From Hoplostethus atlanticus (taxonomy: Eukaryota; Chordata; Actinopteri; Trachichthyiformes; Trachichthyidae), in the NCBI GenBank assembly GCA_034670405.1, contig JAXDDX010000050.1, forward strand, positions 1,290,501 to 1,354,500: DNA of 64,000 nucleotides, given 5' to 3'. Shown here piece by piece: positions 64-58,344 of this stretch. Position 1 is the stretch's first letter, and each line of letters starts with the position of its first letter. The notes below the pieces were generated by a model. The model did not search any database, was not told the origin of the DNA, and worked only from the letters and a program-made list of their open reading frames with translations. The position numbers and the translations under genes were made by a program.

Positions 64-1917
64 CACGGGGTCACCTTGTGGCAAGTGTGTAGTGCACATT
101 ACAAATTGAGAATTTGTTTATTATCATAGTTACACCACAACAAAAACAGTCTTTGTTGCGAGTATCAATATCAATATTTCAGAACACATATAATACACTT
201 TTAGAGGGATTAATATTCAGCCCTGAACTCTGCACCAATTTGTTTTTTTTAAACCTAAACTTCTTTTAACGGGTACTTAATGGAAACAATCACGCTAATC
301 AAAATAGAACAAAAAACATTACTTAACAAAATAGAATCAAAGAGTTGTCATCTTTATTTGCTTAGGTTGTGGAAGGCGGCACCAAATACCTGGGGAAGTA
401 CATGACATTTTCACAACAACAGATTTCAAAGTATTTTTTTCAAAGCTCAAAAAGGACCAAAACTTTGTGACGTTTCTTTCGATGCTGAAGGCAATGCATC
501 AGGTACTGTTGGCTATTCAGCATCAGCCAATCAGTTCCTGATGCAGTATCATCCACATCAGAAAGCTCTGCCTTCACCCCAACATCAGTGCAGGGGCAAC
601 AATAGCCAAATCATCTACAGCAAATTTGGTTCCATCAGCAATATCTCCTCATGATACAAAAATATCCCAAACTCAAACAACCTTATTATTCTTTGTGACC
701 AACAATAACACAATAGCCAGTACTGTACAGTACGCATCATTGTAAGTCAAGGTGGCAGCAGACGCATCTGCAAAGTGAATTCATGCAAATTCAAAATGGG
801 CATGCATTATGAAAGAGCTGCAAGAGATGGGGCTGCACTTCAAAAGACTGTAGAAAAGACATTTTTACAAAAATGGGTGAGGGGGATACAGGGGGGTGGG
901 GTGGATGTGAGAGGAGGAAGAGCAGACAGAGAGGGTGTCTGTGAAATGTGTTTGTGTAATTGCAGTGACATCTTCATTGAGAGCCCTCCATCTCTTTCCT
1001 GTGTGCTCCAAGGGGCGTCGCTGGTGCCGGTCGATGGGGAGAGCAGCCGAGGCGCTGTGTTTAGCATAATCCCAGAGGCCATTGTGAGAGGAGCTAGTGA
1101 ACGACTCACAGTTGCCAGCTGAGATTTCACCAAAACACAGCATAACACGAGAAGAGGATGAGACAGGAAAAGCGGAGGTGGAGGAGGGGTAAGAATGTGG
1201 AAAGGACTCGAAGGTGAGAGACAGGGTAGGTGGCAGTAGTAAGGGAGAGAGAGAGGCTAAGTGCCACAGACTACACTGTAAGGAATCTGAAAAGGGTGAC
1301 AATCATGTTATGTACATGCACAGTCTTCTTTTTGGTGAGTAGTGAGGAATGGCAGTATGGTTGTAGGATCAGAGTGGTTGTGGATATGGCTGTGGTGAGT
1401 GTTCTTCCAGGTGGAGTGCACCTGCTCAATAACCCCCCCCTTTCCCTTCTTGAAAACAATCAGTTACTGTCTTGACTTGAAACAGGAATAAAACGACCAA
1501 GAAAAACTGTCAGGACGCAACATTTCTTCTACTGTGTATCTTGGTGCAGAGATCATTACCTTCGACTACAACGTCAGATCCTTTCTCTTCACGATCTCAT
1601 TTGAACAGAGTGTGTTTTAGTACCAGGTATATGAAACCATCTGGTCACTCTCTAACATGTTTAAGAATACAATAAAATTGGAAATGTGTTGCTCAGACGA
1701 TGACATAGTATTCTTTACGGTTTCCCTGTGATGCAGGGAACTGAGGGACTTGAACTGAGCTAGAGCCACTGTCTAGGGCTCATGTTGCAAAGGGCATATT
1801 GGACAGACTGCAGAATCTCTCCAGGTGATTGTGAGAATATAAAGCACCATCACAGTTGCCTGCAGAGATTACCCAGTCTGTCCCTGGATTCCTCACTCAC
1901 AAGTTTCCGCATGCATG

Positions 1918-14401: not shown

Positions 14402-15005
14402 TCAAGCGCAGAGTTTCTGTGTAAGTACAGGTCCATTTTCCCAAGGTTTTTCAGTAACGATGAAATGGCACTGAAGTTTCTGAAATAAATCGCAAATTAG
14501 TGCATGTTCTTTACATAAGTTTCCACATTGCCACAAAATTTTTTTTTTAAAAATAAATAAATTCCGTACCACCTAATGACTTACCTTGGAGTCAGCCTGG
14601 ACAACACATGGCTCTGTGTCAGCGGTTTCCCCTTTCTTGCACAGGGTCCGTCCCAGCTGTACGTCTAGGATGTACTTTATTCCCGTAACTACCTACGAAA
14701 TAACGGCAGGGCTATTCTTAGGTGATTTTCTTCACGATTGAAATTTCCCCCCCGTTACTGATTCAAAACGCTTGCACTCAAAGTTTTACCTGAGCTTTGG
14801 CTGATGTTATGCTCATGATTTTGTAGGCAAACAAATCGTCGACGCCTTTGTTAAATTCACCTACAGCGAACCGTGCTGCCTCCAAAACATCGGTGCTGTT
14901 TAGCGGGACCTCATATGGCGCACCGGGCATCCCTTGACCATCGGCGACAAAGCACCCGGCCAAAGCACAGGCGAGAAAACAACAAACCGAAATGTACAGA
15001 GTCAT
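14402..15005 (-). CDS. Type-2 secreted cystatin (cystatin C-like), complete
   Basis: Secreted inhibitor of papain-like cysteine proteases (cathepsins). Three coding exons on the minus strand: 15005-14790, 14692-14585 and 14479-14402, joined by GT-AG introns of only 97 and 105 bp, all phase 0, giving 133 residues. Residues 1-24 form a hydrophobic signal peptide (MTLYISVCCFLACALAG). The family hallmarks are present: an N-terminal Gly (PGAP, residue 28), the QVVTG loop (72-76) split across the exon 1/2 junction, a Pro-Trp hairpin (120-121), and four cysteines (90, 101, 112, 132) for the two type-2 disulphides. NST at 36-38 is a possible glycosylation site. Exon 1 could extend upstream to an ATG at 15179, but a TATA box lies inside that extension and the signal peptide starts at 15005, so I chose 15005. 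The gene is cst3-like; which paralogue cannot be decided. Confidence 0.9.
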
Positions 15006-15042
15006 AATTGAAAGTAACCAGGAAGACGTTTCAAAAGTAGCC

Positions 15043-15053
15043 TTTATATAAAA
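15043..15053 (-). promoter_or_regulatory. TATA box of the cystatin gene
   Basis: On the minus strand this reads TTTTATATAAA, 38-48 bp upstream of the cystatin ATG. Initiation about 30 bp downstream would give a 5' leader of only some 10-20 nt. The position supports the chosen start codon. Confidence 0.6.
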
Positions 15054-15059
15054 CGGATA

Positions 15060-16497
15060 GTTCCGGTCCTTGGTTCTGATTGGCTGAGTCACGTTCCAAG
15101 CCTGTTTGAAATTCCAGATAAACGCGCACCTGTGGCAGCGTAATTGTAAATTCAAAAATGAATGCGCTAATGAAAACACCCACTCACACTAGTACTTACT
15201 TATGTGTAGCGTAGCGGCCACGTTTGGCTGCTGTTCAAGGGCTGTAATGCTAGGCGGAATAATGTAATTATTATTGATTAAAAGACGCCTTTAACATTTT
15301 CTCCTTTTATAACAATGGTTGCCGTTGTTCCATGAAATCAGTAAGGAGTAGCCTAACATACATAATATTGTTAGGCACGCCGAGAACGGCAATTGGCACA
15401 CCTGCGTGTATTTTGATAATTTTGCGCTTGTTTGATGCGGTGCGCAAAAAACAAAGACCCTGAAATGTTTGTGCGCACATAGCAATTGTGCATACATCCG
15501 CTTCAGAAATGTATAATAGATTGTGAAACACTTTTCCCTCTTTATCCCAACAGAAAAAAAACTAAAAGCCTTCACGTTCAGATCATTTTTATTTAAAAAC
15601 GGCAAAATATAAACACTACACTTTTGAATAGCCTATTTTCTCCTTTTGTACAAGAGATATTTGAGCGTTTAAAAAGATGGCCACGTGAACAAACAATCAT
15701 TACTAGGACAGGGAAGCCATCTCATTAGAAAGTTTCACAAAATGTATTCTTACATGGCTGGGTGTGATGGGAATCTGTTTTCACTACAACAAAATCAGAC
15801 CTCTCTGTAGACATGGGAAGAAGTGAAGGGCTCACTAAGCCAAAATAAAGGAAACAACTGGAGGGAGGCATGGCTTTTTTTTTTTAAAAAAGCACTCACT
15901 TCCATAAAAGCAAAAAACATCCAACAAAAATTAGTCTTAAACAAAACTATACCTTTAAGAACAAAGGAATGTAGTACTGGTTAATCTTTTTTCATGTCCT
16001 GAAATACCAGTGCAAAAACACACATGAAAAATATTTGACAATCCCATAGTCATCACCAACTGAACAGCTCAAGTACTACATAATGACTTGGTTTGCACGT
16101 TAACTGCCCAGTCCACCCTCATACTGCCTTTTTATTTTATTTTATATATTCTATGGTATTAAGTCTTGCTCCTCAGACATGGTTACTTGGTCATTGTTTT
16201 CAAACAACTCTGATTTAACAGATAGTGCAGGTCAATAACTGATATGTTCAGTGTTTTGGCAAAAAATGTGGTCATGTTATGTGCTGTATGGTATGTGCTG
16301 TGAATTAAATAAGCAATTCAAAACAGTATTTAGGCCTAGCAGGTTGTTCTATGGAACAGTTTCTCATATTTAAATCCTATTAATGTATAGCAACCATTTG
16401 TGAACACATTCCAGTTGCCTCGTAACGTAGGTTAACGTGTAGTTTCTTCGGCCCATTCTTCATAGGGTATGTACCTGATTTAGGTAAATGGAGACGT
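15060..16497. other. Intergenic between cystatin and xpo5 3' end
   Basis: AT-rich, with a T/A-rich stretch near 15877-15893 and only short unsupported reading frames. It holds the upstream region of the minus-strand cystatin gene. No further gene or repeat family is recognised. Confidence 0.55.
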
Positions 16498-17384: not shown

Positions 17385-20300
17385 CTAGAGGGGTTTATGC
17401 TCTGGAGAGAAGAGAGCTGCCAGACCCAGTAGTTCACTGTTCAGTATTTCTTTGTCTGGCTTGGACTTTTTAAAGAGAGATGGAAGATTCCGGATATGAA
17501 CTTCCTTTCTGAATTGCTGGCACAGAGCTTTCTGTGGGGGAGTGACAGAGAGAAGAAAAGTTAAACAGGGCTATGCAAGATTATAAAAAACAAAATGTCT
17601 CATATTTCATCAAGGAAGGAATTTCATTAAATTGTACAGCCCTGTTGAATCCTACTGCTGTACAATTTTTGCCGCCTAGCACAGAAAATTTATAACAGCC
17701 AAAATCACATGGCTTACTAATGATTTACACTATTAGTCCTGCATCTGTGGTTGTATTTACTGAGCAAGTTACAGTGGCCACATTAGAGAAACACTGTCCT
17801 CTAGTGGCAAAATGTGGAATTACCCCCACAGTTCCAGCGATGAGCTTCTTGAATTGGTCTTTCCTCTTCTTTTCTCCAACCTTCTGGGCGTTTGGGTCCA
17901 ACAGCCTGTGATCATACTGGTCCAGAGCCTCCACACTGATGTTGGGGATCTGGGCCATCACTGCTCTCAGCTCCATGTAACGCGGCCACTAGGATAGACA
18001 GACGAATATGCACCGCACACGCAGGGTGAGGAGTGGATTTAACAGATGTATGTTGAGAAATTATTTTCAAAATCCCTCAAATAATTCTTCAAAACTGAGA
18101 TTATATTACAACCTGCAAAAATAAACAATGTCCACATCACAGCATGCATCCCTACACCTTTCTGCTCATCAAATTCCACAATTTTTCCAATACTATTCCA
18201 TCACATATAGCACAATTTCCATGACCAATATTTGTCACCGTCTATGCCGCCAGTGTTTTTACATTGAATATCTGACTTGAATGTCCCAGGTCTTATTTCT
18301 GGCTATAACTATTACTTAAGACCGATACCATCAGAATGTTCTGATTTGGGTTTCTAGTCCTCAAAAGATCAGCAATAAGCCAAGCTTGACATTAGATTAT
18401 CAACAAATTTCCATGATAGCTCCAAAACTATATGCACAAGTTCTATTCTTTTCCAGGCCTGGAAAATAATTTTTTCAAATTCCATTACTGTAGGAACCCT
18501 GGCATGAGTAGATAATTTGCTTTGCCCAGTCCTAGATGACTATTCAGACTTAGGATAGAGGAAAAGTGAGCCAAACAAAGGCCGAAATAAAGAGCAGATA
18601 TGGACGGAATAGGGATGTGGGGTGATGTTATTAGCCTCACCAGGCTTTCGTAGATGAGCATGGCCAGCTGTGTGAGGGTAGAGTTGCAGACCTCGTGCTG
18701 CCCGTGCATCTGCAGGCCCCGCAGAACACTGGTGTAGAACCATGTGACCGGCCTCGGGTAGGAGGCTACCCCCTACCACCTGAACAGACACAACAAGTGG
18801 ATGTGGGATGAAAATTTAAAAAATGGGCAGTAGCACAAAGTTCAATGAATTTCAAAACCATGACACATTGAAGCCTACTGATAGAAAATGATTTCTCCCA
18901 CTATATTTATCTATTAACTGTCTTGAAATGCAAAATAAAACATTAAACAAGGATGCAGACATAACCGAGGTCAACAAGTTTGCAAAAATTCAAAGATGCA
19001 CCACAGCTAGTGTGGTCTGGGGGCATGCTCCTGCAGAGATTATATCAAAAACTAACTTGTGAACACTTCCAAGATGTTTTGTTTGTTGCTTTGAGCCATC
19101 AAGTACACAAACAGATTCTGATTCTTGTAAGATCGCCATGCCCCCCGATAACATTGTATGCAAGCTGTTTATAGGTTAATACTGGGAGTTCATTGTATTG
19201 CGTAGGCTACCTGTCGCAGCAGGCTCCAGCAGACCATGGAAGCAGTGCGGTGACAGTTAGTCGTGTCCTTCCACGACAGAGAGATGAAGGAAATGGTCAG
19301 CAGGTTCATATAGATGTTCTGGGCATGAAACAGTCAGACACAGAAATTAGTATGATATACGGCCCGTAAAGATATGAAGATCTGATTATGCTGCCCTCTG
19401 TGGAACTAATACAACGCGTCTGAGGCTGACCTCGTGTTTCACTAGACATTTTCCCAGCTCAGTCAGCTCGTCAGTGGGCTGGGCAGGAGACACCGTCTGG
19501 GCTGAGTCTGTCATCATCTCTTCCTCTACACATTTCACACAAAACTGTGAAACACTCATGAGAAAGTGTCAAACTTACAACAAAGGAATAAAAGCAACCT
19601 ACTGCATTCAAATTCTCTCGCTCTTACCGTCAATTTCCTCCTTATTCCCTGGTGGTTCAGGCACTTTCTTGGAAATACAGCTCACAGCTAGAAGGAAGAA
19701 GAGCAATATTAGGATATAATAAAAGATGATCAGGCAGTCGCTTGCCACCTCCTACCCTTTATATTTTTCAGTACCTTGGCAATACAGTCATGGCAAAATA
19801 TCACCCTTATAGCCCAATGTCCTGGGGGAATTCTTTTTTGCTGGATGTGCAGCAGGGCGAGAGGATTTTAGAGTTGAGAAACAGCAAGTATCCCACAGCT
19901 CTACTCTAAGGAGGAAGATAAAAGGAGCTCCATTTCATTCTTCCTGACCGCCAGAGGCGATGCTTTAGCACAAGATCTTCTCCATCTCGCACATGCGCAG
20001 GTCGAATCATTATAGCAACAAAGTCACCTGTGACCTGGGATGACGTAGGGCACGCCCCCAGTATAAAACCCCTCTTCATCCCATAATCTGTTCCCTTCTA
20101 TCTTCTCGCAATTGAATGCCAACGGTAGCAGGTCAACATTGCTAGCTGGTGGCTGGTCTGCTTGTAGTCTCGTAACCATAGGGCTGGCGCTACGTTTCTG
20201 TCCACCCGAGACTGCGACAAGCCTATTCCAGCTCTTTTCCCTCCAACAGTCAGCTGTGGCTGTGCTATATGTACTTGCTTAAGCAATAAGCCACAAGAGG

Positions 20301-23300
20301 CCATGCTTTACAATGACTTTAAAGCAGCGACATTGTTAGAAACAGCGAATAAGCATTCTATATCGCTTTCATAAAACCGCAGTAACAAATAATTGTACAC
20401 AAATATGATACATGTTTGATTAATCAATAATTAAATGTTATTCTGCCACCAAGGAATATAGTTCTTGAATGGTAGTTAAACACAAAGTGGTTGCTAAGCA
20501 GCACATTGAAAATGTTGTATTATTAGAAACCAAGTTACCTTCCCTCCTTCATCAAACCCCTAAATTAACTAGAGTAGAGTTACTCAAACTTACTGAGAAG
20601 ATCCAGGACCTCTCTGGTGACCAGGCGCACCAGCTGCTCCTCCAACATCTCCTGCGTCACCTGGCTCTCTTCACACACCACCTCCTCCTCATCCTCACCA
20701 CTAAACACAAAGAAGTAGACAGTTCAGTGTCATCACATTCACAATATTCAGCTTAGACACAGTCAGCCACCCAACAATTAAGCAATAAGCCACCAACAGA
20801 ACCAGAACAACACCTAGCTGCGTTTATGGTGGTAACACACCATGGCAAGAATTTTTTTTACGTTTTAACTAATAATAAATAAGTTATTCTTCAGCCAAGC
20901 AAAATAGTTCTAGTATGAGTGGTGATTTTCGGTTAAGGCATTAATATTTACCAGTTATGCAGCCGTAGTTGTACGTTTAATGGGCTTTTTACAGCTTTGA
21001 ACGGGACTAAATTTAAGCCAATCTCAACTGAGGACCTAATTGAACTATCTGTTAAATAAGGCAGACCCATTGCCATTTCCCATTACTTGGTACTTCTAAA
21101 TACATACATAAGCATGAACAAACACACACAGTAACTTACTTAACAGAACTCCTCTGGTTGATGACCTGCCACTTGACGTTGAGTCTCTGCAGTGTGAAAG
21201 GGAAACAAAGCTATGACCATTGGCGTCAAAACAACTCTGAGATTCTGATAGTTGAGATTAACCGAGATTATAAGAGTGCTGTCTGATTGGTGTCACTAAT
21301 GATACTGTCACATAGTGGGGAGTGTAGAGATCCTGACCTGCAGCATGTAGGCAAACAGAGGGCCCAGCAGGGGGCAGAGCAGACTGTCATAGTACTCCTG
21401 AGGACATGATAGCACCAGCTGCTTCAGAAACACCCGTGCACAGGTTAAAGAAATATGATGGTCACATAAAGCGATAGTTCAACTTTGCAGCTAATTAAAC
21501 TCATATACAGCTACAGTTGTATCTGTCTAGTTAAATCCAAGAGACATGTCTTCCATGCAACCCAGGTATGCCCAAAAGTATGGAAATGGTGAGAATTGGT
21601 GGATCAAACAGACCAAAAGAAAATAAGGATATGAATCATAGGGCGAAGTCTGTGGTCAGGCACATGGTCGAGGGAGACAAAGGCAGAGCCAACTATTTGT
21701 TCAGCCAACCCCTCGATGGTGTAGAAGTCCTGTTGCAGGGATAGACCTGCATTTCCCAGGATGTGGAAACTACAAAAGGTAAAGAGAGCAGTAGAGGAAG
21801 CATAATTCAATCTGTAATAGCATGTAAAGGATATAAATATAACAAGGCACACAAGGAAATGATTATTACTCATCATTAAAATAATTTGTTGAGGGAAGGG
21901 GCATATAAAAAAAGAATCAAAGTTGGGAAAAATCATGCTGCTACTACACACTTCTCACCAGTTGTCATACAATGTGCAGAAAAATCCTTGCATGCGCTCC
22001 AGGTTGGTTTTATACACAGGAGAGTCATAAATATCCAGCAGAGGCTGAGGAAGACCTAGAGAAAGCATGGCATTGAGCAGGTTTCACCACGACAACCCGG
22101 AACCTCTTCAGATGATGGCTCATTGTGGGCAAGAAATCAAACACAGCAAAACTGGCTCAGAATAAAACCTCAATATTGAGCTGAAGCATTAACAAAGAAA
22201 GTTCCTCTCACCTAGAACCACGTTCTTTTCTACATCCATCACCTCATAGGCCTTGGAGAAGGTTTCACTCAGACGAGCCATGTTCTCTGGCATGAACAGA
22301 CTGTTATGAGTTCTTCAGTGAGTGTGGAGAAAGATGGGATTAAGAGAAAAAGAGATTGGTGACCGCCATCAATATAATATTAATAGGCATAATTAACAGA
22401 GTAAGAAACAGAGCTAATGAATGCAATGTGAAATCAACCTGATGAGAGCCAGCAGGTTTGGCAGCAGGGCTAGAACCTGGGCAGTGCAGGGGTTTCTGTA
22501 GATGGGAGCCCCAGTGGGGGTGTACCCCACCACAAAGCCCCCAGCCTTGGCCTCCTCCAGGTCTGCAGGCCAACGTGCCCTCTTCACCACCCCCAAGATG
22601 GTGTACAAACAGAAACTCAACTGGACAATGACAAACCAGCGGGATAAAAGACATACGTCAATAAATGTGCAATTGGCACAGTTTACCACATGAGACTAAA
22701 AAAATAAAACCACTCCATTTACACACATGCCCTTACCCGTGCCCTATTAATGCCCGTTGTGTCTGTATCTTTGCTTTGCTGACTGACCACCTGATCAGCA
22801 CCGACAAAGGACAAGAACAGGGCAGGGTCCCACAGCACACTGAAACATATGGAAAAGAGACAGTCACTTCTCCATAACAACATAAAGATATGTACAGTTT
22901 GAGAGAGCAAAAGAACGCACTGCCTCATCTCATCTGAGGTCCACTGTGCGACCACTGAGGCCATGAGTTCCTCTACGAAGGCCTTCTGTTTGGCAAAGTC
23001 TTTGAACTGGTTACTGATGAGGACCAGGGCCTCCATCAGGGCACATTTCTCCATTTGGGTTAGCATGGCCTCGTTGGTGAACAGCTTCTTCACATGGTTG
23101 TAGAGCATGTCGAAACAAGGCTGGAGAGGAAAAAGTGAACAATATAAGCAGGTAAGTGTTAGCAAACACGCCTTCTTATCCATGACTATACACCCAAGTG
23201 TGTTTCAGTTATCCATGTATGCGTTTTTGCTCCATCAACTGAAAAGCATAGTCATACTCTTCGCTTCAACTGTGATACAATGACATTTACTTACCAAAAC

Positions 23301-24254
23301 GAACTGTGGGTAATCCCGGCACATCTTGATGATGGAAGAGCAGGCATGTCTCCTCACATTCTTTACAGCTCGTGTCCGAGGCACCTGAAGATGTCAACTG
23401 CAATATTATTTTCTTTGTTCTTGGATGTGAGGAGAGAGTGAAGGGCTGATTTTTCTTGTGTTCGTAAAGACAACTCACCTTGCTTTCCTGGACAACTTCA
23501 AATGTGATAGCAGCAAACAGCTGTGGTGCCAAAAGAATAAGGGGAATTGAACGGCAATTACAGTATGTGTCGGCTTTAAAAAGAGACGATCACCATTTTA
23601 ATGTGAGACCTCAAAGAAACACAAGGCAGCTAAGAGAGTTCCAAAGACGGCAAATAGTTGGTGCCGAAATTACAGTAGCGTCGGTCAGGATAATTACCAA
23701 ACACCACAAAACTACAGCCTCGAAAAACATCAAAATACCAGAATTGAATCAACACCTCTGTGATAGTCTCAACTGAAACTGGTATTTACGGGAGGGCTGC
23801 CAGATTTCCACCCTTGTTATCCCTCCAAGAAGTAAAGGCTTTCTGTCTTGAAGAATGGTCCAATATCAAACTTCACACAGTTCAGTACTTGTATGGCAGC
23901 TCTCCAAGTAAGTAATAGTAAGTAATGAAGTGTCTCTGAAGGCAAAGGGTGGCACTAGTCCTTATTAGGTACTTGATATTTGTATAGAGATAAATAGACA
24001 GAGACATAAAATATAGTAACCAAAGAATGGCTCAGCTGACCTTGAAGAGGACCTGGGGCAGAAAGTGAGGTCTGTGTATGACAAATGGGAAGAGGGCAGA
24101 GACGTTGGTGAGGACACAGGACAGGATGAGTGGGTCTTTGGTGTCGTAGTTCAGCACAGCCTGCAGGAGCTCCATGCCCTGATCTATGGGCAATTTCTAC
24201 ACAGCATGAGACAGAAGGAGTAGGCAAACCTTATTATTATCATCATCATAACTG

Positions 24255-24290
<36 letters not shown>

Positions 24291-27200
24291 ATGTCAAACA
24301 GTTTTGTTTCTTAATAGTGTTGCTGGTACGTACCTCCTCCTCCAGATTTTTGAAGGTCTGTCCCACCACGCACTCTGTGAAGACTGTCATGGCATCCCAC
24401 TGGACCGCTGACGGGGACAGGATGGAGCACAGGCCCTCGGCCGTCTTAGCTAGAAAGGAATGGAGAGAGAGAGAGAAGTGAAAATGAGGATAAGACGATT
24501 GATATGACTTAATTTCTTGAGTTGAGATGTCAAACGGACAAAAATAACTGTCCTGGCCAAACGACCAGAGTTGCAGGTACACACATACAGAGTGATCAAT
24601 TTCCCTCTCTGACACTGCATCAAGCTGTCAAGAGTAAAGATAAACCACACTTACAAGTGGTGTTCCCAGTGTCAATGGGGCTGGTGATCTGATACTGTAA
24701 CCATTCTGCTGCTATCCGGAACGCTTCCAGAGGAACAATGCGACAGGCGCTCCTCACCACCTCTCCCTGCTGCGCCCGGAAAGCTGGGGAGCATCAGAAC
24801 AGATTGTAAAGAAAAAAAATTTAAAAAATTTTAAAAAATCAGACAACACACAGTATCAACAATAACTTAAGTAAAACTAAATATATAATACTTACAGTTA
24901 AAGAATGAGTTGAAGTCCTCGTCACTGTCAAAGTCCACACGGGAGTACTCACAGCTTGGGTTATCAATCCTGGATGGAAACCCAGTCTGGAATGAAGGAC
25001 AAAAAAACTACATTAACAATCCCTATGGCTTCTATGTGCACTTGTATTGCACTTTTACCACTGTCTCAGCACCTTGACTAGGTTGGTCATGGTTGTTCTT
25101 AGGTACTTGATGGCCAGCTCCACCACAACTGGGTCCTTTGACAGAATCTCATGTCTGAACAGAGCTCCCCAAGTGATCTGAGTGGAGGACTTTAAAAACT
25201 GGAGAGGAGAGGGAGAATCAGAGGAGGCACTAAACAACACAGCTTGAAAATTCAGATGAAAGCATCAGGTAAAGCCCATCATAAAACCTTCCAAACTTTT
25301 GTCTCACCTGACTGGGGTGTGTAGTGAAGGCTAAGAAGGCTTCCATGTACTTGCTGAGGTTTGCAGGTACCTCAACCTCTATGTCTGAACCCTGTGGACA
25401 GGAAATCGGATCAGTACTATCATGGATAGATTTGCAGTAAATGGCTTTGTTACTGTATGTGTCTTTTTATGTGGACCAAACTCACATAAAAGATTGTATA
25501 GACAAACAAAGGAATCAGTATCAAATTAGGATAGACTCACCACCAATGAGCAGAGTTGGCTTCCCAGGGCACACAGGACCTGACACAGCCTCTTCAGGAA
25601 GATGTAACGTCGTTCTACCACTCCCGCTGGTCTATAGTATATACACAGATCATTGCATAGGCTACACTGAATAAGCCTATTTCTATGCTTATTTTCTCAC
25701 TGTCCAACCCCTGTCAGTGTGTGATGCACAATATGTAAGTGTGTGACGTTACTTACGGTGTTTGAGAGGATTTGTTACATATTGCAACTCCGTCTGCTGA
25801 CCTGCAACCAGATAGAACCTGCCAGTCAACAACACTGAAAAGGGTAAGTTGAGGCCTATCAAGAGGGAGGATACAGAGAATAAGACTGCAGCAGGTGTAC
25901 TCACTGCGCTGCAGAAAGGATGTAGTGGATGGCCACATCATCAAACAGCAGCATGAATGGCTTCCTGTCCTCCAGCTTGCCCTGTGACAACACAACAAGT
26001 GATTACAGTTTTGTATTGTCACCTCTATTACAAACAAGACAAACATCCACTGACTCAAAACTTCTCCTGTTGCTACTGAGGCACACTGTTACATGGCTCA
26101 TCAGATCTATGGTTCTACAAGCAATTATTTCATACTCTAAAGATATCATCCACATGACATAGCCATCTGTTACGCATTCTGGCTCAGGCATGGCCCTTTT
26201 CAAGACGTGTTGCCCTGTGACCAACCTTCCGGCTGATGGCGATGAGCAGGCACTCTGCTGCCTCCAGCTGCAGCTCTGCCTCGCTCAGCAGCAGACACAG
26301 CATCTCCAGCAAACGACAGTTGTCATTGGTAATGTGGGCCAGGGCCACCCAATCTATGTAGCCTGCAAGTGTGTTCAGAGTTGCCACGGCGACCCGACAG
26401 TGAGCTTTGGCCTGTACATTGAGAGAGGGGAGCACAGGATGGTTGTTGAAGTCATCAAGACAAGTTCATTTGAGAGCAGAGACGCAGTGAAGTTTTCTCA
26501 CCTGTAATTCCTGTCCAGGTATCCTTTTCTGGGTAAGAAAAACAATTAGAAACACGTTATTGTTCAATTTACACTTTTGAATGAACAATTATGGAAAGTT
26601 TGTGAGCCTAAGACCCCCACTGACCAGTTTGCGATAGTCATCAACATTAAGCTGCAGGATGGCCAGCAAGAAGCTGAAGACACTGTCCATATTTTGGGTG
26701 AGGGTCTGTTGGATGTCTCTGCGCCGCTGCGTGGGCAACGTCTGGAAGGTGATCACATCCTCTGCCAGCCGCAGCAAGATCAACATCACGAGCTCCGTCT
26801 GAGCCTCCTGGGAGAGGCAGGGAGAACAGGATTCAATTTCAGTTCAGTCAGTCAGGGTTCGTACACATTATTGCTAATCAAATCCCATGACATAAAGGGA
26901 CATTTCAATTACCATTATTTGTCAGTGTCTGAATGCTGAAATGCTACATCTGTTTTATAGATGAAATTATCAAGTGGGATTTAGGTGATAAAAGGTTCTA
27001 AACAAATGTTCATGCCATTTCCAAAGCCTTTTGAGTATTTAATCTAATCCATCTGCCAATGTGTTAAAACTATGATGACGCCATGTGAATACGAAAATAA
27101 CAACACCACCATGATTTGGCCTTATTTGCATGTGAGTTATTACATCATTGTATGCAAATTGCATGCAACACGGTAAAGGAAATGACTGGTATGCAGTAAC

Positions 27201-28508
27201 CGCACATGTCCAGCACTCTGTGAGTTACTCACCCCAAGGCTAGTGAGAGTCTCCATCTCTTTCAGCATATCTGGCCAGTGTTGAGGCCATTCCCGCTTTA
27301 TCATTTCCACTATGATGCGTGAGAGGACGTCTTTGATGTGGCTCTCCTCCTCCAGGATAGAATGAGTTCCCTGATGAAATACAAAACAGGTAGCAGATTG
27401 GCATCTACTGTTGTAACATTCAGGAAGACTTTAATTTTTATAACATCTGACAGATGGTTCATTTGAATGTGAGTCAGTTCATGTACATTGAGAGCAGCCT
27501 TTCTATTACCCTTTCAGACTTACATTTGATAGCAGCTGCATGGCACAATTCTTCAACTGGACTTTCTCTTGTTGTGGCATGTTGTTCCATCGGAACCTGC
27601 GCTCAGAAGAGAAAACTTCTGAAGCATGTTGCTTATGTCACGCAATCATGTTATACTTCATTTAACATGAATATGTTACACTCACTTGATGACGTGTTCC
27701 AGGATTTGCAGACCAAAGTGTCTCACTACGGCTGTCTGGGCTTTCTCAGCCAATTGTAAGCCACATGGGACACAAAAAGTGCACGTCTCTTTAAACTCTT
27801 CACAAAACTGTTGTAATAAAAAAAAAAAGAGCTTGTCAAACTATGGACAACGAGTTATACGGCACATTATTTCAATAACATTTGTTGTTGTTGAATGTTA
27901 TATTACAAATGTAAATATTGCAAGAGAATTTAATGCAGCAGCTACCCGAACAGCATTACACATAACTGCATGACATGGAGCACAAGGCTAACTTGCCAAC
28001 TAGCAAATAATGAAATGTAACATTGCCTTTAGTAACACAGCGGACCCTCTTAAGTCGAGCTTCTAGCCAATTCGTCTTCCTCAAAACTTCCGTTGGGCTA
28101 TCAGTACGAAGACAGATATTGCCATGACCATGAATTAACCATCTGACAGTCGGCAATGGATGTGGTGGTGATGATCTTGGCATGCTAGCTTGCTAAGCAG
28201 CTGGCTGTCATCATTACTACTTACATACTAGTGAATGAAATGTATAACCGGTTCTAATGTAGTTAGTGCGACAGATGAAGCTGGATTTTGTCTTTCGGTT
28301 AAGCAAGCACTTGCTTCTAAAGTCAAAACAAAAAATTCTAATAACTGCCAATGTCAGCTAGCTAACGTTAGCTAGCTAGCATCTCCAACCCATCACGATG
28401 CTATACCTTTAGGGCCTCCAGTCGGTATTTTTGGCTTGTCCCTGCATCCATCATCACATTCACAGCTTTGATAAGCTGGTCGCACATGGCAGCCACCTGC
28501 TCAGACAT
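17385..28508 (-). CDS. xpo5: Exportin-5, complete 33-exon coding region
   Basis: Karyopherin-beta receptor that carries pre-microRNA hairpins (and some tRNA/dsRNA cargo) out of the nucleus with RanGTP; a HEAT-repeat superhelix with an Xpo1-like domain near residues 100-270. Exons (high to low): 28508-28407, 27807-27686, 27596-27524, 27370-27233, 26807-26625, 26528-26502, 26411-26226, 25981-25905, 25801-25757, 25631-25541, 25391-25308, 25198-25073, 24986-24896, 24783-24655, 24449-24334, 24196-24041, 23520-23479, 23384-23295, 23120-22921, 22839-22737, 22620-22439, 22312-22212, 22055-21959, 21769-21633, 21435-21338, 21186-21140, 20700-20594, 19687-19628, 19525-19431, 19318-19211, 18779-18641, 17988-17824, 17531-17385. 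Phases agree throughout except exon 31, which has one extra nucleotide. Total about 1,220 residues; mammalian XPO5 is about 1,204. Landmarks include REWPQHWPDML, EEAKAGGFVVGYT and KDQFKKLIAG. Intron 24 is AT-AC. Shared upstream region with tp53bp2. Confidence 0.95.
18641..18779 (-). other. xpo5: xpo5 exon 31 with apparent +1 frame disruption
   Basis: The exon joins in phase 0 on both sides and should be a multiple of three, but from acceptor 18779 to donor 18641 it is 139 nt. The first ten codons give VVGGSLLPEA, as expected for XPO5; the family frame then resumes one base later as VTWFYTSVLRGLQMHGQ. One extra base near 18748-18753 explains this. An alternative AG acceptor 7 nt downstream (exon from 18772, 132 nt) keeps the frame open but replaces the segment with GVASYPRP. 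Allelic null, sequence error and alternative splicing are all possible. Confidence 0.75.
19800..20300 (+). promoter_or_regulatory. TATA-containing LTR-like promoter block in xpo5 intron 27
   Basis: Antisense to xpo5. It contains a CRE-like TGACGTAG (20041), a GC-rich CACGCCCCC, then TATAAAA at 20062-20068, followed by a CT-rich stretch where initiation would fall near 20095. This compact arrangement inside an intron resembles the U3/R part of an LTR retroelement, but I find no clear TG...CA ends, second LTR or coding part. It could instead be an unrelated promoter-like insertion. Boundaries are approximate. Confidence 0.3.
20277..20545. repeat. Dispersed repeat, copy 1 (xpo5 intron 27)
   Basis: It begins with TTAAGCAATAAGCCAC and contains CAAGGAATATAGTTCTTGAA and GTGGTTGCTAAGCAGCAC. 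These strings recur in the copies at 20776-20990 and 49545-49800. The TTAA start with an AGCAATA terminus suggests a piggyBac-like MITE, but the class is not proven. Confidence 0.5.
20776..20990. repeat. Dispersed repeat, copy 2 (xpo5 intron 26)
   Basis: Starts with the same TTAAGCAATAAGCCAC as copy 1 and carries GGTGGTAACACACCATGG, TTATTCTTCAGCCAAGCAAA and CAGTTATGCAG, shared with the copy in tp53bp2. Non-coding. Confidence 0.5.
21436..21632 (-). other. xpo5: AT-AC (U12-type) intron 24 of xpo5
   Basis: In the xpo5 orientation the intron starts ATATCCTTAT and ends TTTCTTTAACCTGTGCAC. No GT-AG pair joins the flanking exons. Splicing at AT...AC joins ATTC to GGGTGTTT, giving RLRPMIRVFLKQLVL, which matches the XPO5 family. 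The start fits the U12 5' splice site (RTATCCTT) and TTCTTTAAC fits the U12 branch site, about 10 nt from the AC end. The intron is 197 bp and needs the minor spliceosome. Confidence 0.9.
24256..24290. repeat. (TCA)n trinucleotide repeat
   Basis: About 11-12 TCA units in xpo5 intron 15. It creates a false poly-Met/His frame and is not coding. Confidence 0.95.
26502..26528 (-). other. xpo5: 27-nt microexon of xpo5
   Basis: A phase-0 exon encoding KRIPGQELQ, between a TTACCCAG acceptor and a GTGAGA donor. It replaces a divergent linker in mammalian XPO5 that lies just before the conserved CRV..ALNTLAGYIDWV segment. It is too short for an ORF scan and was found from phase and splice sites. Confidence 0.7.
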
Positions 28509-33835: not shown

Positions 33836-36800
33836 CAGAAGGCCCAGCAGCCCGTACTGAGACCCCTCAGGCATGGTCAAGGATGTGGCCCCTGTTACCT
33901 TCTACTGCTGTGACCCTGCCTCTCACCGTCCACTTTCCCAGCTGCCCCAGTTCTCCCCTAGGCTTTATGTCTGATGCTGTGCATCTGTGGCAGTCAGTCT
34001 AATTGTATCTGGCCTGTCTGAAACTCTTGCACGTGGATTCAAATATATGTCATATTTTAGTAGGTTTGTGTTCATTTACACACCTCATTCATTAACACAG
34101 ATTCACATAACTTGCCTCCACTTATCTCCATATTTGGAGCATACTGCGAATGGATCCGAATTGCTATGATTGAATGGTTCCCTGCTTGTGGAGCCCACTA
34201 ATACTCAATGATTAGCATCATGTTTGTTATAATTGCTTCAATTTTACACTATCCTAACACCCAAGATGGTTAGCATATTATGTGAATTTCCATAGTGCTG
34301 ACTTCCTTTAGACCTACTGTACTGGTTGCATCTTCACTTTCATGTCAGCAAGTGATTATAATCAGATCTAACTGGGACCATAATTATACAGGCAAACTTT
34401 GAAAGTTCACTATATGAGGCTAAACAATCTCTCACAACACACAAAACCAATATCACTTTTTATGCTAGTTATATAGAGAGAAGACTGTACATAGATGTTT
34501 TGGTTGAGTTATATGAGTCACAAGAACACTTAATAGTAGTGTTAAAAGACAACTTAACTCATCTATACAAATAATGTCTATGGAGTCAAACATTTGATTG
34601 TCTAAAAATCATGCTTTATGCTTCTAGAAAATAATGTTTCTACTGTATCTAATTCATTGTCTGAACCTTACATCATTCAGTCACTCTTACTTCCAGCTTT
34701 GCTATTGCCAAGTGCTGGAAAATACCACTTGCTGTGAGGTCAGATAGACTCTTAGATGTCTCAGTGTTTGTTGTTTTCATTGTGATTCAAATTTTGGACA
34801 ACCGCCTTTAAATTTCCTGTGCCTCGTGCCCTGAATTTCTATTTAACATCACTCGTTGCCCACTGAATTATGTCCCCTCTCCCATATCTTCCTCCTCAAC
34901 CTAATCCAGTCTGTTCTTATCTTGGGGAAAATTCTCCCTACCTCTCTCTTAGCCCTTAATGTTTCTTGGCCTCTGCGCTCTTTACTATTGGTTGCTTGTG
35001 ATGTTTATGATTCATGATTTTAAGCTTATGCTACTGTTGCACTCATTCTAAGTCAGGTTAAGATAAGAGTTTCAGCTAAATGCCTAAAATGTAAATATAA
35101 AGACTATAGCCTAGGTCCCTCTGCAGCCATCTAGAGCCTGGAGCCATATTTTCTTGTTAGATGTTAAACAGAGAAACAAAAAAAGCTATCCAAAGTACAA
35201 GTACAAGTACAAGTACTGTCCGAACTAATTTGAGTAGAAAACATTTACTAGTAACAGGGCACATTAGGTCCATTTCAGGATATCTTACGGCAGTTTTTTC
35301 CAATTACCAAACCCGCATTATGAAATACCCCCAAGGTTGCAATGAATCTTTATAGCTGTATTGACGTTTATTCCCTTTTCTTTTGGTCGTTACCCTGACG
35401 GGGCAGAGTAATACCATTAGTACTGTGTTTATTCTGGAGATAGGAAACTGCAGTGGCAGACAGTTTTGAACGCTCTTTATTCTAACTCAATAAGAGAGCA
35501 ATTGGGTTGGTACATATATCTCGAGAGACTAATGCCGTAGAATTGACCCTCACAAGGAGAGAATGGACTATTGCAGCTCAGAGAGGGACATTGGGATTGA
35601 AATACTATTACGCCTGTTTGAAGTTGACTTTAGTATAACTCTAAAGCAACATAAACAAAGGCTCACTCTAAACATGTTTCTGACTTTCAACCCCAAAGCT
35701 TTGCATTAAGCCGACAATTCTCTGTCAACTGCTGTCTGCTTGTGTGCGGCACCACTTGTGAAGCGCACATGCACATTATCTGAATGATCAGTGGGAGTGC
35801 CATCACACACATACACATACATATACACTCCTTGCTGTAATTGGCTGTGGGTAAAATGTTGATCTTTATACCCCAGTCATCTCAGTCCTCTGCCTAAACA
35901 ACCAGAGAGGCTTGAAAAGCCTATTCCCCATAGCCTACCCTGTGGTTGATCAGCACACACAAAGGCAGGTTTGTCAAAGGCAGCTATGGTGAGAGAAGGG
36001 AGTCAGATTAGGATGTATAGGGCCAAATCAGGCTCTTACTAGCAGTAGGGTGTTTGTGCCAGTGATCGTCAGTATACTTGGCACAGACTGGCCCTCCTAG
36101 GTGGATCATGGCTTATTCGACTTCAGTCAGGATAGACGGACAGACACAAGGATACAGTTTTCTCTCTGTCTGTCTCTCTCTCTAAGAAAGCAACCCCTGG
36201 GCCCAAGGACAGGTCAGTGTAGTGTTTTCAGCTGTACCCACTCTCTTCCTCTTAAAGTGCTCAACCAGTATCTCTTGTCTGAGGGTTTGATGTTACTGCC
36301 TTTCATCACTGAGACACTTTAATGGCACATGCTTGAGAACCACTGGTGTAGACACAACAGGATGTGTGGATGCAATTGCTTTGATGGCACTTACTTTTTC
36401 CCATTATAAGAAATGGACTCCTTACCTGTTGTAGGTTACTCAAAAGGAGATTCTTTTACAGACTACAGACTTACAGACTTTGATACACTTATTTGTCTTA
36501 GCTCTTGTTTATTTGGTTCACTTATTTGTCTTAGCTCTTGTTTATTTGATTCTCTTATTTGTCTCATTTGTTTAAGATATAGTAGGTTGCTAACTTATTG
36601 CACTCTTACCTTAACACTAGTTATGCTCTTAGTCGCTTGTTTAGGAAGGAAATGCACTTACGATTTCTGGTGACTATTAGTTTTCTTGCCTACCTATGTT
36701 GAATGCACTTATTGTAAGTCGCTTTGGATAAAAGCGTCTGCTAAATGACTGTAATGTAACTACAGGCATACTGCATGTAGCCTAGCTGCAGGCTATTAAG

Positions 36801-57900: not shown

Positions 57901-58344
57901 TACTTTTCGATGTACATTAATCTCCTTCTGTGTCCATCCTCAGGTGTGCAGGAGAAGATGGGCATCATGAACAGGGGCGTGGTCTACGGTCTATGGGACT
58001 ACACCAGTGAAAACCCTGATGAGCTGACGTTCCGCGAGGGTGACTGCATGACCATCGTCCGCAGAGAGGATGAGGACGAGATCGAGTGGTGGTGGGCGCG
58101 CATGGCCGACACCGAGAGTTACATTCCCCGCAACCTCCTAGGGGTGAGTCACCGTGTCCAACGGCATCCTGGATCTACTAACTTCACATCAGTGTGCCGT
58201 CAAACATAGAACAAGTCAAGACAATGTAATGACGTTGATAAAGTGTTTCTGAAAAGTACAGTGCAGTGTGTTGATGTTGATGTCTTCCTGTTGTCCTAAC
58301 AGCTCTACCCCAGAATAAAGCCAAGACAGAGAAGCCTGGCTTAG
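29815..58344 (+). CDS. tp53bp2: ASPP2 (p53-binding protein 2)
   Basis: Scaffold that binds p53-family proteins, PP1 and junctional/YAP partners. Exons: 29815-29841, 40621-40768, 41874-41987, 43481-43548, 44494-44595, 46191-46365, 46635-46816, 47014-47178, 49886-50070, (51612-51662 uncertain), 52452-52574, 52718-52839, 53519-53930, 55238-56094, 56910-57047, 57272-57405, 57600-57766, 57944-58143, 58303-58344. Order of parts: N-terminal ubiquitin/RA-like fold ([10 protein letters not shown]), Gln/Glu-rich coiled coil (44.5-47.2 kb), proline-rich region with PPPPYPSG near 56000 (WW-binding PPxY), PP1 site RVKF (56964-56975), ankyrin repeats (57.27-57.77 kb), SH3 domain (57.94-58.34 kb) ending [10 protein letters not shown]. 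About 1,150 residues; human ASPP2 is 1,128. [10 protein letters not shown] and [15 protein letters not shown] favour ASPP2 over ASPP1. The canonical MMP start is at 29833; MRYEAK would be an N-terminal extension. Splicing between 50070 and 52452 is unresolved. Confidence 0.92.
33799..33832. repeat. (GT)17 microsatellite
   Basis: Perfect GT run in tp53bp2 intron DNA. Confidence 0.97.
35037..35097 (+). repeat. Degenerate retroelement 3' tail
   Basis: CTAAGTCAGG..AGATAAGAGTTTCAGCTAAATGCC is a decayed version of the tail seen intact at 36700-36760. No element body is recognisable upstream. Confidence 0.5.
36486..36570 (+). repeat. 33-bp tandem repeat
   Basis: About 2.6 copies of a 33-bp unit starting CACTTATTTGTCTTAGCTCT, at 36486, 36519 and about 36552. 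It sits about 130 bp before a teleost retroelement tail and may be part of that element's 3' end. Confidence 0.7.
36700..36760 (+). repeat. Teleost retroelement 3' tail
   Basis: TAAGTCGCTTTGGATAAAAG followed by CGTCTGCTAAATGACTGTAA is the widespread fish SINE/LINE tail. The reverse-oriented form occurs at 50196-50254. Confidence 0.75.
42006..42053. repeat. (AC)n microsatellite
   Basis: An AC run with one G interruption, starting 18 bp after the donor of the tp53bp2 exon that ends at 41987. Confidence 0.95.
45828..46070 (+). repeat. tRNA-derived SINE
   Basis: It begins with GGCAGTGGCAGTAGCCTAGA and GGTTAGAG (A-box-like) and has a decayed B-box region (GGTTGCAGTATTGCATCC). A conserved central part follows, CCCTTGAGCAAGGCACCTAA then CCCCCAATTGCTCC, then GGAGCTGCTCAGTGAC. 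I recognise this composite from teleost SINEs. It lies in a tp53bp2 intron, about 120 bp before the exon at 46191. Confidence 0.7.
49093..49140 (+). other. tp53bp2: Candidate alternative exon of tp53bp2
   Basis: A strong pyrimidine tract and TCAAG acceptor precede 48 nt that end CAG before GTAACT. It is phase 0 at both ends and open in frame ([16 protein letters not shown]), so it can be inserted between the exons ending at 47178 and starting at 49886 without shifting the frame. I do not recognise the peptide from mammalian ASPP2. Confidence 0.4.
49545..49800. repeat. Dispersed repeat, copy 3 (tp53bp2 intron)
   Basis: Shares GGTGTTAACGCACCATGG, CTTCTGCCAAGCAATATAGT, GGTGGTTGCTAAGCAACAC and CAGTTATGCAG with the two copies in xpo5 introns. 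It ends about 85 bp before the tp53bp2 exon at 49886. Confidence 0.55.
50196..50254 (-). repeat. Teleost retroelement 3' tail, reverse orientation
   Basis: TTTTACATTTACATTTTAGT followed by CATTTAGCTGCTCTCATCCA is the reverse complement of the tail type seen at 36700-36760, with a few changes. Confidence 0.65.
51612..51662 (+). other. tp53bp2: Candidate tp53bp2 exon with internal ATG
   Basis: A 51-nt segment with an acceptor CTTCCTCAG and a donor GTACAC. It is open in one frame only, [16 protein letters not shown], which needs one preceding nucleotide and leaves one G that joins correctly to the exon at 52452 (GIQSSKL). It cannot follow the exon ending at 50070 directly, since that reading stops after RGHVLA. 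It may be an alternative first exon starting at MFLL, or need a linking exon (possibly 51434-51480). Confidence 0.35.
54848..54925. mobile_element. Fragment with hAT-like terminus
   Basis: CAGCGTTTCCCAACCTTTTC resembles the terminal repeat of common vertebrate hAT elements. The matching inverted end was not found in the following 400 bp. A (CA)15 run follows at 54929-54958. Confidence 0.35.
54929..54958. repeat. (CA)15 microsatellite
   Basis: Perfect CA run within tp53bp2 intron DNA. Confidence 0.95.

Follow-up and report, generated by a model that had tools for sequence, protein, structure and literature searches.

A predicted U12-type AT-AC intron in the exportin-5 gene of Hoplostethus atlanticus

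The window, a stretch of 64,000 nucleotides of Hoplostethus atlanticus DNA analyzed at its full length, carries on its minus strand a gene whose coding region (17385..28508) was modelled with 33 exons and 32 introns. The exons were placed by hand and eye from reading frame and splice signals, with a preference for GT-AG boundaries. The product of exons 1 to 30 (1071 aa) matched human exportin-5 (PDB 3a6p_A) with 1608 bits over residues 3 to 1071, and the Pfam family Exportin-5 (PF19273) matched the product with 588 bits. Judged by this homology, which spans most of the exportin-5 length, the minus-strand gene is exportin-5 (xpo5). Exon 24 (21633..21769, minus strand, 137 nt) and exon 25 (21338..21435, minus strand, 98 nt) are given by both the gene model and the alignment with the human protein; exon 24 is flanked by the GT-AG intron 23 and the AT-AC intron 24.

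Elsewhere in the gene, exon 9 (25801-25757, minus strand, 45 nt) encodes about 12 extra residues compared to human exportin-5, which is without them. Exon 31 (18779-18641, minus strand) has a one-base frame break, frame 0 reading VVGGSLLPEA and the next frame VTWFYTSVLRGLQMHG. Relative to the human protein the frame changes once; this is either an assembly error or a real break, and the xpo5 copy or its assembly may be imperfect. The window that holds this microRNA-export gene also contains mir-217 and two mir-216 precursors (475-567, 1059-1135, and 1805-1879, minus strand). Further features are a cystatin domain (about 14778-15179, minus strand), a UnaL2-type LINE 3' element (36700-36754, plus strand), and an SH3 domain (about 57910-58209, plus strand) that presumably belongs to an ASPP-like gene.

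Intron 24 of xpo5 (21436..21632, minus strand) is 197 nt long, lies in phase 1, and has AT-AC ends: it starts with ATATCCTTATTT and ends with TTCTTTAACCTGTGCAC, the 3' terminal AC being at 21436..21437 on the minus strand. It is the sole non-GT-AG intron among the 32 modelled, the GT-AG ends of the other 31 being partly a product of boundary choice. When position 21633 is joined to 21435, the sequence reads ATT CGG with the junction after the C, and the product RLRPMIRVFLKQLVL aligns with RLRPMLRVFVKPLVL of human exportin-5 with no gaps; in human numbering, the alignment puts the junction at R893/V894. A C common to both intron edges leaves a one-base ambiguity; in the alternative register, the intron ends are CA...CA.

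The consensus word of U12-type 5' splice sites, (A/G)TATCCTT, is highly conserved. The predicted 5' splice site of intron 24, ATATCCTTA (21624..21632, minus strand), agrees with ATATCCTTT in 8 of 9 letters, while the other 31 modelled xpo5 introns reach 5 of 9 at most. As a U12-type branch we counted a TTCCTTAAC-like sequence complementary to U12 snRNA; pairing was scored in a fixed register with a bulged A, and the last 45 nt of the other introns were scanned. The sequence TTCTTTAAC (21444..21452, minus strand) can pair at 8 of 8 positions, one of them a wobble, with GTAAGGAA of the genome's own U12 (from U12 nt 18), compared to 7 at most in the other 31 introns. The candidate branch A is 21446 or 21445 and is followed by 9 to 10 nt of intron (position -10 or -11). 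This spacing is short, at or slightly below the optimum of 11 to 13 nt between branch and 3' end that the available part of PMC3584512 gives for U12-type introns. The same part of that paper names the 5' splice site and the branch sequence as the defining features of the class.

Other properties of the 3' end were less distinctive. Between positions -20 and -3, intron 24 has 13 pyrimidines in 18 nt and the other 31 introns have 9 to 17, so that intron 24 does not evidently lack a polypyrimidine tract. When the register was left free, the duplex energy with U12 was -5.6 for the intron 24 branch stretch; the eight introns with the strongest duplexes, none of them intron 24, ranged from -11.0 to -8.9. 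Free-register energies of intron 3' ends are thus not discriminating for this branch. The original prediction had claimed an AT-AC intron at 21436..21632 whose 5' site and branch, about 10 nt before the AC, fit the U12-type consensus. Coordinates, ends, and motifs were all found as claimed, the intron being number 24 in the 33-exon model, and the letter match, the full branch pairing, and the 9-to-10-nt spacing bear out the consensus fit.

The whole assembly (632.8 Mb, 1161 contigs) was searched for genes of three minor-spliceosome snRNAs. Above the Rfam cut-off, genes for all three, U12, U6atac (2 matches), and U11 (1 match), were detected in the same genome. Positions +4 to +8 of the 5' site, TCCTT, can pair 5/5 with AAGGA of U6atac and, with one wobble, 5/5 with nt 4 to 8 of U11. 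When longer stretches of U11 or U6atac were used, other registers scored equal to or better than this pairing. The pairing at +4 to +8 is therefore consistent with the U12 class and is no proof of it.

How often such signals arise by chance was estimated in several ways. On both strands of the window, 8 of 9544 AT sites (intron 24 included) have at least 8 of the 9 letters of ATATCCTTT, and 1 of 7621 AC sites, intron 24 itself, has a U12-type branch sequence 8 to 20 nt upstream. With the junction position set by the protein, the joint frequency of the two sites is 1.1e-7, as a product in which intron 24 is counted in both terms. If the position is left free, 60 simulated 64-kb strands (first-order Markov) contained on average 0.083 donor-acceptor pairs, with at least one pair in 4 of the 60. 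The real minus strand has two such pairs, the second of which joins ATATCCTTT at 21834 to the intron 24 acceptor, and the plus strand has none.

Could nearby GT-AG boundaries, with or without a microexon, be used instead? We scored 742 combinations of donor and acceptor, drawn from five kinds of dinucleotide pair and leaving an intron of at least 40 nt, taking donors from 60 nt inside exon 24 to 190 nt inside intron 24 and acceptors up to 60 nt inside exon 25. In this range, 26 of 114 GT-AG pairs stay open through exon 26, so frame alone leaves a GT-AG intron possible. By BLOSUM62 score against the human protein, however, the AT-AC pair ranked first of the 742 with 333, followed by a runner-up with 314, and the top GT-AG pair reached 305. 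The top open GT-AG pair replaces the conserved residues RVFLK with HILIFFWS, and its donor has 3 of 9 U1-consensus letters. Moreover, the protein has no missing residues for a microexon to supply. We consider GT-AG usage of either kind to have next to no chance. The claim that the AT-AC ends restore the conserved reading exactly is thus upheld by the gap-free human alignment and the best score of all pairs. The accompanying claim that no usable GT-AG boundary exists does not hold with respect to frame, but it stands in the sense that no credible GT-AG alternative was found.

Another explanation is that the major, U2-dependent spliceosome removes intron 24 despite its AT-AC ends. The consensus of U2-dependent AT-AC introns is ATAAG-like, and nothing of this kind is present in intron 24. 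Such introns do exist, according to the available parts of PMC3584512 and PMC8280824, and near its 3' end intron 24 is no different from the GT-AG introns in pyrimidine content. Against this, positions 3 to 9 of the 5' site have 6 of 7 U12 consensus letters, the branch pairs fully with U12, and +4 to +8 pair with both U11 and U6atac; U2-dependent removal therefore appears very improbable. Based on the scores, the gap-free protein, and the U12-type 5' site and branch, GT-AG usage, a microexon, and a U2-dependent AT-AC intron were all rejected. Since the 5' site, the branch and its spacing, the exact protein junction, and the predicted pairing with U12, U11, and U6atac agree, and no credible GT-AG rival was found, intron 24 of xpo5 is almost certainly a U12-type (minor-class) intron of the AT-AC subtype, as judged from its sequence.

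For such a U12-type intron, U11 and then U6atac would pair with the 5' site. U12 would pair with TTCTTTAAC, bulging the adenosine 21446 or 21445, and the minor spliceosome would join 21633 to 21435.

Intron 23 contains a second ATATCCTTT (21826..21834, minus strand), a perfect U12-type 5' site word 202 nt upstream of the intron 24 5' site. Its 12-nt surroundings are identical to those of the real AT-AC 5' site at 11 of 12 positions, and in simulations the chance that an ATATCCTT falls in the 202 nt preceding the real 5' site is about 0.004. Splicing from this word (21834) to the AC at 21436 would lead to a stop at codon 855. Under a broader proposal, the A-type minor intron of exportin-5 is conserved and places pre-microRNA export directly within reach of minor-spliceosome disease genes such as CENATAC, and U11 also binds the intron 23 copy of ATATCCTTT, whose competition determines how much exon 24 is spliced productively. 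We regard this combined proposal as speculative and unlikely.

If intron 24 were retained, nine residues (HILIFFWSV) would follow exon 24 before a stop at codon 909. We also predicted the products of bypassing the intron by major-class sites: 17 of 24 such bypasses hit a stop, and the other 7 keep the frame through exon 30, the mildest of them losing 282 nt (exons 24 to 26). The nearest bypass by the major spliceosome at annotated sites joins exon 23 to exon 26 and causes a frameshift. A cryptic GT donor at 21613 joined to exon 26 leads to a stop at codon 906; one at 21609 is in frame with exon 26, and its donor match is poor (3/9). Skipping of exons 23 and 24 would be in frame with a loss of 234 nt, but it would require a GT donor to be spliced to the AC end. 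Because of these outcomes, full-length exportin-5 should need removal of intron 24 as predicted. Given the stop upon retention and the frameshift from exon 23 to exon 26, its amount would be expected to fall when the minor spliceosome is limiting. It follows from the U12 class that the output of exportin-5 should depend on the minor spliceosome. Such aberrant transcripts, carrying premature stops, have been reported to escape nonsense-mediated decay; because of this escape, loss of xpo5 mRNA is not to be assumed.

AT-AC ends are a routine subtype, and intron 24 is an ordinary, at most new, member of a well-known class. The available text of PMC7367187 gives AT-AC ends for 22% of the U12-type introns in zebrafish and 26% of those in human. 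That of PMC9501576 counts 662 zebrafish U12-type introns in 612 genes, with shorter introns reported among those that zrsr2 mutants retain. In the part available, PMC10639083 cites 91% of human minor introns as conserved in zebrafish. The string "xpo" was not found in the main text of PMC9501576, PMC6717393, PMC12332006, PMC10639083, or PMC8280824. Among the matches listed, no paper names a minor intron in exportin-5; supplements and minor-intron databases, which lay outside the scope of the search, may well list XPO5. In PMC11460701 and PMC8698559, minor introns and exportin-5 co-occur with no bearing on an exportin-5 intron. A scan of viral contigs with a 101-aa peptide (exons 24 to 27) produced 7 pattern matches, none of which was confirmed as a relative. 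If its splicing is confirmed, intron 24 would make exportin-5 one more gene that needs the minor spliceosome for its output.

IPO5 and exportin-5 are both transport receptors of the importin-beta family. In its available part, PMC8280824 links AT-AN minor introns, as a selectively responsive group, to CENATAC, presents human IPO5 intron 21 as an example, and describes the affected genes as enriched for nucleocytoplasmic transport. These CENATAC findings, as far as that text goes, make an effect on microRNA export in minor-spliceosome disease directly testable. As described there, IPO5 intron 21 is, like xpo5 intron 24, U12-type with AT-AC ends; the host gene here is exportin-5. The U2-dependent SYCP2 intron 5 and TAF2 intron 1, which appear in the same available text (PMC8280824), share their terminal dinucleotides with xpo5 intron 24 but differ from it in that the 5' site and branch of the xpo5 intron are of the U12 type.
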